Below are positions 17,460-18,866 of a stretch of DNA of 64,000 nucleotides, piece after piece (within the stretch, counting starts at the first letter, position 1; every line of letters starts with the position of its first letter). A program made the translations under genes and the position numbers. A model generated the notes under the pieces. That model saw only the letters and a program-made list of their open reading frames with translations, was not told the DNA's origin and did not search any database. Origin of the DNA: Acidobacteriota bacterium (GTDB lineage: Bacteria > Zixibacteria > MSB-5A5 > GN15 > FEB-12); NCBI GenBank assembly GCA_035529075.1, contig DATKXK010000018.1, positions 62,001-126,000 of the forward strand, written 5' to 3'.

Positions 17460-18866
17460 TCAGTGGCTGACCAGTTCCCGCCTGAGATCGTACTTCCGTA
17501 TTTTGCGCCAGAGCGTGGTGCGGCCGATTCCGAGTTCGGTGGCGGTCCTCGTGTAGTTCCAGTTGTTGTCGTTAAGGGCATTGACAATGACGGATCGCTG
17601 GCTGCTGTCCATCAGGTGACCTTTCAGGTGGAGCGACCTTCGCGCCGGTCCCGGTTCCTCACCGGCCGGTTCGCGACCGGCGGAGACGAAGGAGATATCG
17701 TCAACGCTCAGTTCGCCGCCGCTGCAAAGGGCGATGCCTCGCCTGAGCGTGTTTTCCAGCTCGCGCACGTTGCCGGGCCAGGTGTGACTCCTCAGTCGGT
17801 CAACGGCCGGCCGGCTGACGGCTACCGGCTGCCTGTCGGTCTCCCGGCAGATCTTCCGCACCAGGTAGTCGATGAGGATTTCGATATCCTCGGCCCGTTC
17901 GGCCAGGGTGGGAAGATTCAGCGGTATGACGCTCAGCCGGTAGTACAGGTCCTGGAGAAGCTCCCCGTCGGCAACCATTTTGGCTAGGTCATGACTGGTT
18001 GCGGCCACGACGCGAACGTCAACCCGCCTGGATGTCGACGCACCGAGGGGGCGGACTTCCGAATCGGACAGGAAGCACAGGAGCTTTGCCTGCACCGATG
18101 CCGGTATGCGACCGACCTCGTCCAGAAAGAGCGTTCCGCCGTCGGCCTCCTCCAGCAATCCCGGCCTGCCGGGTTTCGCCGACGCGTGAGAACCCGCAAC
18201 GCAACCGAAAAGCCCTGACTCCAGCAGCGATTCGGGAATGGCCGCGCAGTCTGCGGTGACGAACCTCTTGTCCCGGCGGTCGGAGTGGTGGTGGATGGCG
18301 CGCGCGAACAGTTCCTTGCCGGTGCCCGAGGGCCCGGTGATCAGAATGGTGATGTCGGTCGCGGCGATGCGCCGTGCTGTCTCCTTCAACTGCGTAATCT
18401 GTTTGGAGATGCCGATGATGTTGTCGAAGCCGTATGACATGGCCACGTGTTCGCGAAGAACCGTGAGTTCGCGCCGCATCAGCCTCAACTGCACGGCCTT
18501 TCGTACTGTCAGCAGCACCTGATCATCCGAACACGGTTGTACGAGGTAGCCAAAAGCTCCGTCGCGGACGGCGTCCTCGGCGGCGTCGACCGATTCCGGT
18601 GCCGCCAGCAGAATGAGCTCGCTGCCCGGATAGCTTTCCCTGATTTCTCTGACTATCTCAGGCCCGGGGGCGCTGCGCCCGCGAATACCGGCGAGAATGA
18701 CATCGGGCGTTATCCCTTTGACGACGCTCGTGCCTTCAGCCGTCGAAACGGCTTCGTGGACACGGTGGTGCGGACCGGTGAGAAGTCCGGCCAGTGCCTT
18801 CCGCGGCGGACCGTCGTCATCGATGACCAGGATCTCGATATTGGTGTTGCCTGTTTTGGAATCCAT
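17460..18866 (-). CDS. NtrC-like regulator with a degenerate receiver and no GAFTGA motif
   Basis: 468 residues: receiver domain (about 10-125), AAA+ domain (about 149-375), Fis-type helix-turn-helix (about 425-465, ATELGIGRTTLWRKIRKY). Walker A GPSGTGKE (178-185) and Walker B GGTLFLDEV are intact. The receiver keeps acidic residues D16-D18 but has Gly60 where the phosphorylated Asp should be (PDVILAGIR), Ala88 for the conserved Thr and Gln110 for the conserved Lys, so it cannot be a normal phospho-acceptor. The sigma54-contacting GAFTGA loop reads GSHASA (225-230), and the first arginine finger (FRED in NtrC) is L304. It probably binds DNA and ATP but does not activate sigma54 by the usual route. 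Translated 12 bases after the upstream kinase-like gene. Confidence 0.85.
   Translation of the reverse strand: MDSKTGNTNIEILVIDDDGPPRKALAGLLTGPHHRVHEAVSTAEGTSVVKGITPDVILAGIRGRSAPGPEIVREIRESYPGSELILLAAPESVDAAEDAVRDGAFGYLVQPCSDDQVLLTVRKAVQLRLMRRELTVLREHVAMSYGFDNIIGISKQITQLKETARRIAATDITILITGPSGTGKELFARAIHHHSDRRDKRFVTADCAAIPESLLESGLFGCVAGSHASAKPGRPGLLEEADGGTLFLDEVGRIPASVQAKLLCFLSDSEVRPLGASTSRRVDVRVVAATSHDLAKMVADGELLQDLYYRLSVIPLNLPTLAERAEDIEILIDYLVRKICRETDRQPVAVSRPAVDRLRSHTWPGNVRELENTLRRGIALCSGGELSVDDISFVSAGREPAGEEPGPARRSLHLKGHLMDSSQRSVIVNALNDNNWNYTRTATELGIGRTTLWRKIRKYDLRRELVSH

Follow-up and report, generated by a model that had tools for sequence, protein, structure and literature searches.

A conserved operon of Zixibacteria pairing an NtrC-type regulator and a kinase-like protein whose phosphotransfer motifs are degraded in one lineage and repeatedly in its relatives, with a candidate operator in its promoter

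Each of the single losses described here already has a precedent. The receiver of FleQ is described as incompetent for phosphorylation (PMC10723142), and the NtrC of Caulobacter crescentus, which has no GAFTGA motif, is reported to repress its own operon (PMC10274813). NifL, which is kinase-like and carries H and GHKL domains, inhibits the AAA+ activator NifA within a complex, and the same source presents the C-terminal domain of the K. pneumoniae NifL as devoid of ATP/ADP-binding features yet able to form the complex (PMC9866876). About 2% of receivers have no aspartate according to a passage of a 2025 review, in which the switching of bacterial pseudo-receivers is termed a mystery and nearly all the characterised ones are orphans (PMC12632262). 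We analysed 64,000 nucleotides of a bacterium of the Zixibacteria (assembly GCA_035529075.1, contig DATKXK010000018.1, positions 62,001 to 126,000; this whole stretch is called the window), and in it an operon which encodes, in this order, a kinase-like protein, an NtrC-type regulator and a GAF-domain protein (Table 1). We consider, with a probability of roughly 55%, that this is an old two-component operon in which the parts serving phosphate transfer and sigma54 were dismantled, the DNA-binding output having been kept, with contact-type control of this DNA binding by the partners. In what follows the individual genomes compared are designated by G-numbers and their families by f-numbers, G000 being the window's own genome.

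The regulator has the architecture of the NtrC-type (group I) enhancer-binding proteins, namely a receiver, an AAA+ domain and a helix-turn-helix (HTH), as seen with Pfam, in the model and by fold search. Pfam finds Response_reg at residues 12-120 with 42.9 bits (cut-off 30.2), together with Sigma54_activat, the AAA lid and HTH_8. All three domains are confident in the AlphaFold model (mean predicted local distance difference test score, pLDDT, of 86.9, and about 90 for the receiver), whose nearest folds are NtrX, NtrC1 and NtrC4, FleQ and VpsR being also among the fold matches. The initial annotation had proposed a full-length protein keeping the fold and the acidic pocket of a receiver but carrying Gly60, Ala88 and Gln110 at the switch positions. 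This description is borne out: the frame is open over 468 codons, the acidic pair D16/D17 is retained, and the alignment places Asp, Thr and Lys of the intact orthologues opposite these three residues. We are therefore dealing with a pseudo-receiver, which has the receiver fold and the profile match without the active-site residues, and which, judging from its sequence, is unable to take part in normal Asp phosphotransfer, as had been claimed. A shifted Asp which would fill the pocket, envisaged at the outset as a refutation, was not found: residues 57-64 read ILAGIRGR, and the closest acidic residue, D55, lies 5 residues before the site. The other refutation envisaged, close homologues with an intact Asp60, was found in part, as G027, G004, G012, G018, G008 and G013 all have it; the nearest relative, G027 (59% identical), has Asp, Thr and Lys at the three positions. 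This means that the loss is specific to the window's lineage, and the observation itself stands. A clade characterised by a fixed Gly60/Ala88/Gln110, as the initial annotation had it, must be rejected, since the closest relatives are intact; besides, position 60 is occupied by 14 different letters among the 41 degraded receivers of the order. In G000 itself, Asp, Thr/Ser and Lys are retained in all 10 of the other receiver-bearing Sigma54_activat proteins; hence the losses of the regulator reflect neither chance nor a habit of the whole genome.

The initial annotation missed three further features, which are the loss of the sigma54 loop, the dead kinase-like neighbour and the conserved candidate operator in the promoter. 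In the regulator, the sigma54-contacting GAFTGA loop is replaced by GSHASA; the F-T core of the loop, absent here, occurs in every one of the 22 relatives which are scored as intact in the order. The AAA+ domain keeps the Lys of Walker A, the DE of Walker B and Arg310, while Arg304, within what we take to be the Arg-finger region, has become Leu. Among the 41 degraded genomes of the order, the DE of Walker B is retained in only 3. Since the loop is lost, the term "NtrC-like" suits the architecture of the regulator and not its expected output. A general loss of sigma54 can be rejected, because RpoN is present in G000 and in 120 of the phylum's 132 genomes, including all 78 good ones. As, in addition, GAFT[GD][AS] is retained in 13 of the 14 other strong Sigma54_activat proteins of G000 (the 5 weakest of 20 matches, at 20-30 bits, being excluded from this count), we concluded that one protein left the sigma54 system and that the system itself stayed. 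G000 has a second Sigma54_activat protein with a broken loop, STATGV, in a very long frame (L320, G000:C19:15279-15776). At the other end of the regulator, the string LGIGRTTLWR of the HTH does not vary among the 71 genomes of the order which have a clear orthologue.

The kinase-like partner gave no match in the Pfam search. Its model contains PAS-like, DHp-like (dimerisation and histidine phosphotransfer) and CA-like (catalytic and ATP-binding) folds, the N-terminal one being described solely from the order of strands and helices. Residues 258-466 align with the kinase 6lgq_C over 197 positions (Z 16.3, root mean square deviation 3.2), and a Foldseek search with the model brought up the NifL-NifA complex at rank 22, after many ordinary kinases and phytochromes. 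No N, G1 or G2 box for ATP binding could be recognised by motif and profile comparison. With DHp and CA folds in the model and its catalytic motifs gone, this protein is a pseudo-histidine kinase, and by these motifs it is catalytically dead. With a profile of the catalytic region in its intact form, derived from ten f2/f4 kinases, the scores are 150-286 bits in 11 f2/f4 genomes (10 of which also served to build it), 98-108 in f5, 65-157 in f9, whose kinases are independent of the profile and keep G boxes, and no more than 51 in f1, where 47 genomes were scanned. ATP binding appears to have been lost in all these 47 kinases, yet 9 regulators of f1 are fully intact, from which we infer that the ATP binding of the kinase was lost first. 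In f1, the His of the H-box and the Asn four residues after it are both present in 7 of the 9 genomes with an intact regulator versus 0 of the 35 with a degraded receiver; a function of these two residues, perhaps as a phosphatase, may have lasted until the receiver failed. In G042 and G050 (loci L045 and L043) the kinase genes have only 353 codons and no catalytic domain, the regulator, its GAFTGA-like loop and the repeat described below being intact.

Of 80 genomes in the order, 71 contain a single clear orthologue of the regulator (HTH profile, 75-99 bits, the next matches being at 56 or less), and further orthologues were found in six other families of the phylum. The operon is flanked by gatC-kdsB-pyrG, which diverges on one side, and by mltG-ruvX, which converges on the other. 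The order of the genes and the flanks hold across four families, apart from single genes lost locally: all 38 of the loci fetched first show this operon together with one flank or both, and so do most of the added loci of the order. A gene stands at the GAF position in 62 of the 71 genomes. The initial annotation had noted kinase-like and GAF genes beside the regulator and had supposed that such partners control it; they do belong to one conserved operon, and control by them is plausible. In f9, a receiver-like frame of about 130-142 residues stands between the regulator and the GAF gene (L192-L195).

Upstream of the operon lies a predicted promoter, TAAAG-N15-CCGAT, which matches the sigma28 (FliA) consensus TAAAGTTT-n11-GCCGATAA (PMC2859248), and 11 bp after its CCGATT hexamer starts an inverted repeat, TGTCTCAATGTGAAACA, which we regard as a candidate operator. 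In G000 (3.04 Mb), TGTNTCANNNTGAAACA is matched exactly by the repeat of this operon and nowhere else. A FliA_WhiG sigma factor scores above cut-off in 56 of 61 genomes, G000 among them. A sigma28-type promoter and then the inverted repeat TGTnTCAnnnTGAAACA precede the operon in 62 of 67 genomes versus 0 of 670 shuffles, with modal spacings of 15 and 11; the 67 upstream regions include that of G015, where the "kinase" is not genuine. The scan had given 56 of 67 with gaps of 8-17, and it was widened to gaps of 4-17 (with a spacer of up to 18 and a laxer -35) after misses with shorter gaps had been seen, the shuffles being rerun with the wider setting. Among the five remaining misses, G069 and G035 are at contig ends (the site of G035 is on another contig) and G049 is near one, with an unclear kinase frame; G015 and G017 are real absences. 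Promoter and repeat accompany all 29 intact regulators and 33 of the 38 degraded ones. The position of the repeat downstream of the -10 box suggests autorepression: the site would overlap the start of transcription, which suits a repressor and not a sigma54 enhancer. A reading of the repeat as an RNA hairpin finds no support, as the folding of the region is not above that of shuffles (z 0.04) and as position 4 is the T needed for pairing in only 9 of 62 genomes, so that the hairpin is broken in 53. Nor is a wide regulon acting through the repeat supported, exact and near matches in G000 and in the order having yielded no convincing second site with a sigma28 promoter: out of 30 repeat-like places which we read, a few intergenic ones not being followed, 4 are the start of the same operon on other contigs and the rest lie in frames or have no sigma28 promoter.

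Some observations concern this region more loosely. In many f1 genomes, for example at L033 (G004), the first codons of the kinase, which encode EFQxE, contain another and weaker copy of the repeat (e.g. GTTTCAAGTTGAAC), possibly a second operator. The GTG which is provisionally listed as the start of the kinase-like gene (20277-20279) falls within the inverted repeat; G004 and similar relatives have an ATG after a GGAG ribosome site, and at that spacing the window has ATC (20259-20261). An exact TAAAG-N15-CCGAT also stands before lepB (window 9626-9650), and other sigma28-type matches of G000 precede flgN-like, pilM-like and topA genes (assigned by eye), hinting at a broad sigma28 regulon.

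We then have to consider how the losses are distributed. The 71 genomes of the order divide into 41 in which degradation affects receiver and GAFTGA alike, 22 in which it affects neither, 7 in which it affects GAFTGA alone, and one with an unreadable receiver and an intact GAFTGA; that is, GAFTGA is degraded in 48 of 71 and the receiver in 41 of the 70 readable. A degraded receiver with an intact GAFTGA was found in 0 of the 41 cases of the order. Outside the order, 10 of 20 genomes are intact in both, 9 have lost GAFTGA only and 1 is unreadable. The receivers of G023 and G097, unreadable, were excluded, and G055, which has no N-terminal end and hence no readable Asp, was scored as intact from its Thr and Lys. 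A Fisher test gives p 1.8e-12, relatedness being ignored. All three switch residues are lost in 23 of the 41 degraded receivers, that of the window included. In a 68-row tree of the flanking genes, G000 groups with the intact G027 and with G023 (98% in the Shimodaira-Hasegawa-like approximate likelihood ratio test, SH-aLRT). On this tree the receiver was lost at least 8 times (unordered), 11 times if only losses are allowed, and 9 and 8 times respectively once weak branches are collapsed; for GAFTGA the corresponding numbers are at least 9, then 16, 12 and 10. Because many inner branches are weak, these counts are rough.

The degraded proteins do not behave as neutral sequences. In ten sister pairs of degraded genomes (G000, which has no close sister, is not among them), the ratio of nonsynonymous to synonymous substitution rates (dN/dS) is below 1 wherever it is measurable: 0.11-0.47 for the receiver (7 pairs), 0.09-0.30 for the AAA+ domain (9) and 0.02-0.20 for the HTH (9). 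Eight of these pairs have the pseudokinase, for which the 7 measurable values are 0.08-0.30. In pairs with an intact receiver, the receiver gives 0.03-0.06 in three cases and 0.28 in the fourth. Purifying selection on the degraded orthologues is shown by these sequence comparisons, just as the residue losses, the operon, the nesting of the losses, the promoter and the repeat are read directly in the genomes.

On this basis we propose the following mechanism. The ancestor would have had a histidine kinase, a sigma54 activator and a GAF protein in one operon whose transcription would start from the sigma28-type promoter. The regulator, probably dimeric, would use its invariant HTH to bind the inverted repeat that lies shortly after the -10 box, and would repress its own operon, phosphorylation and sigma54 activation having been layered, in the ancestor, on top of this DNA binding and self-repression; one or more further targets, perhaps weaker ones, would have to exist. 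In the window's lineage, the receiver would no longer be phosphorylatable and the AAA+ ring no longer able to contact sigma54. With both lost, we propose that the DNA binding or the oligomeric state of the regulator depends on direct contact with the pseudokinase, the GAF protein or both, as NifL acts on NifA. In this reading, a phosphorelay-controlled sigma54 activator has probably turned, at least 8 times, into a DNA-binding regulator free of phosphorylation, on which the pseudokinase would act by contact. Somewhat more tentatively, the changes in this one syntenic operon of one order may amount to a stepwise and repeated conversion (at least 8 losses in the receiver and at least 9 of GAFTGA) into a pseudokinase/pseudo-receiver repressor module dispensing with phosphate and sigma54; in f1, the kinase would have lost ATP binding first, its His/Asn and the Asp of the regulator staying, then the sigma54 loop and then the receiver would have gone, the DNA site remaining unchanged.

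Several facts weigh against this proposal. G015 keeps the regulator with its HTH and a sigma28-like promoter and has lost the kinase, the GAF gene and the repeat, and in G017 the kinase is shortened, and both the GAF gene and the repeat are missing. This shows that self-repression cannot be the whole function, and G015 suggests that other targets of the regulator exist. The searches of G000 yielded no further strong operator accompanied by a sigma28 promoter. The kinase His is lost in G012 and G025, whose regulators are intact, and it is kept, despite a degraded receiver, in G000, G036, G070, G072 and G073 (the last four being g20). Finally, when nesting is tested on independent pairs, just 7 are supported, with 3.9 going the same way, 0 the opposite way and a median p of 0.125, a sample too small for significance.

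These same facts feed two other explanations, both of which we regard as unlikely. As the losses in kinase and regulator are not matched one to one and the GAF position is so often occupied, the regulator might bind the repeat under the control of a ligand or of the GAF protein, the pseudokinase being a bystander kept for another job; a phosphorylation-incompetent FleQ is indeed governed by cyclic di-GMP and FleN (PMC10723142). Such a bystander fits poorly with an operon which keeps the kinase-like gene and the regulator together throughout the order, and with the low dN/dS of the pseudokinase. A little less credible still is that another transcription factor reads the repeat, or that the repeat is a 5' RNA element, the conserved HTH serving other targets. 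The repeat does stand directly before the likely ribosome site, and G015 and G017 do have the HTH without it, but repeat and promoter occur together only at this operon, as far as we searched, and the folding results and the mismatch at position 4 speak against an RNA.

Much less probable is a decay under way, in which the operon is becoming a pseudogene. It would account for the many missing catalytic residues and for the receivers of degraded genomes evolving faster than most intact ones, but not for frames of full length, dN/dS well below 1, an unchanged HTH, and the persistence of promoter and repeat in most degraded genomes. The least probable of all is that the regulator continues to work as a sigma54 activator in the manner of FleQ, its loop being a variant. 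Walker A, Walker B and one Arg are kept in G000, and Caulobacter NtrC mutants without GAFTGA are reported to raise the expression of some sigma54 genes (PMC12421884); on the other side stand the missing F-T core, the change of Arg304 to Leu and the loss of Walker B in most degraded sisters. We thus retain the dismantled two-component operon as the best explanation, with the binding of the regulator to the repeat, the repression and the input from the pseudokinase or the GAF protein as its conjectural part.

Table 1. Features of the operon and of its upstream region (positions in the window)
Feature	Position	Strand	Basis or remark
NtrC-type regulator: pseudo-receiver, AAA+ domain, Fis-type HTH	17460..18866	minus	468 aa; Pfam, alignment, AlphaFold
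Codon 60, Gly replacing the phospho-acceptor Asp	18687..18689	minus	sequence, alignment
Codon 88, Ala replacing the switch Thr	18603..18605	minus	sequence, alignment
Codon 110, Gln replacing the conserved Lys	18537..18539	minus	sequence, alignment
Residues 225-230, GSHASA replacing the sigma54-contacting GAFTGA loop	18177..18194	minus	alignment; intact relatives mostly GSFTSA or GAFTSA
Codon 304, Leu; intact orthologues have the Arg of FREDLYYRL	17955..17957	minus	alignment
LGIGRTTLWRK, residues 445-455, recognition part of the HTH	17502..17534	minus	orthologue comparison
Kinase-like partner (pseudokinase), 466 aa	18879..20279	minus	model: PAS-like, DHp-like, CA-like folds; N/G boxes not found
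PAS-like part, residues 187-255	19515..19721	minus	our reading of element order in the model
DHp-like helix pair, residues 262-326	19302..19496	minus	H-box FIHRMRGK: His kept, Asn at +4 replaced by Gly
CA-like (GHKL) fold, residues 333-466	18882..19283	minus	model; ATP-binding motifs absent
GAF-domain protein, third gene of the operon	16891..17436	minus	Pfam GAF matches below curated cut-offs
Predicted sigma28 (FliA)-type promoter TAAAG-N15-CCGAT	20301..20325	minus	pattern scan
Inverted repeat, candidate operator, 17 bp	20272..20288	minus	pattern scan

Elsewhere in the window, positions 13070-14329 encode a protein without Pfam match, about 71-84% identical across f1 and mostly adjoining rarA/ruvX.

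Our search of open-licence papers returned no report of this operon, nor of a kinase-regulator pair, in one operon with a constant DNA site, both partners of which have repeatedly lost phosphotransfer along with the sigma54 loop. Among the closest known systems, the Caulobacter NtrC as described also has the NtrC architecture without GAFTGA and shares an operon with its kinase, autorepression being reported there and predicted here; however, it retains Asp56 in its receiver, a residue important for activation, and it depends on its kinase NtrB, whereas our regulator has none of Asp, Thr and Lys and its kinase-like partner is, judging from sequence, dead. The loss of the loop is common to our regulator and to the GAFTGA-less NtrC of Caulobacter and Rhodobacter, but it occurred here by substitution and not by deletion, and the phospho-Asp which is described as kept and used there is absent here. 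With NifL-NifA, the operon has in common a kinase-like partner beside an AAA+ regulator, contact being proposed here from sequence and analogy. NifA, for its part, is still active with sigma54 and carries a GAF domain itself, whereas here we have a pseudo-receiver and a GAF protein encoded by a separate gene; and the A. vinelandii NifL has the ADP/ATP-binding GHKL motifs, in contrast to the pseudokinase of the window. FleQ of Pseudomonas, and VpsR, share with our regulator a phosphorylation-incompetent receiver on an NtrC-type protein, but FleQ keeps the GAFTGA loop and its sigma54 role. FleQ is not known to have a kinase partner in its operon. Any mechanism will have to explain the order of the decay, in which the sigma54 loop goes with or before the receiver and never the reverse in 41 cases. 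Finally, our pseudo-receivers resemble the class of aspartate-less receivers in matching PF00072 without the key residues, and they differ from it in adjoining pseudokinases in a fixed operon, of which intact sister versions exist in neighbouring genera, the candidate 17-bp site being conserved in both. As the same promoter is available with intact and with degraded regulator and kinase, the two states can be compared and a direct test is possible.
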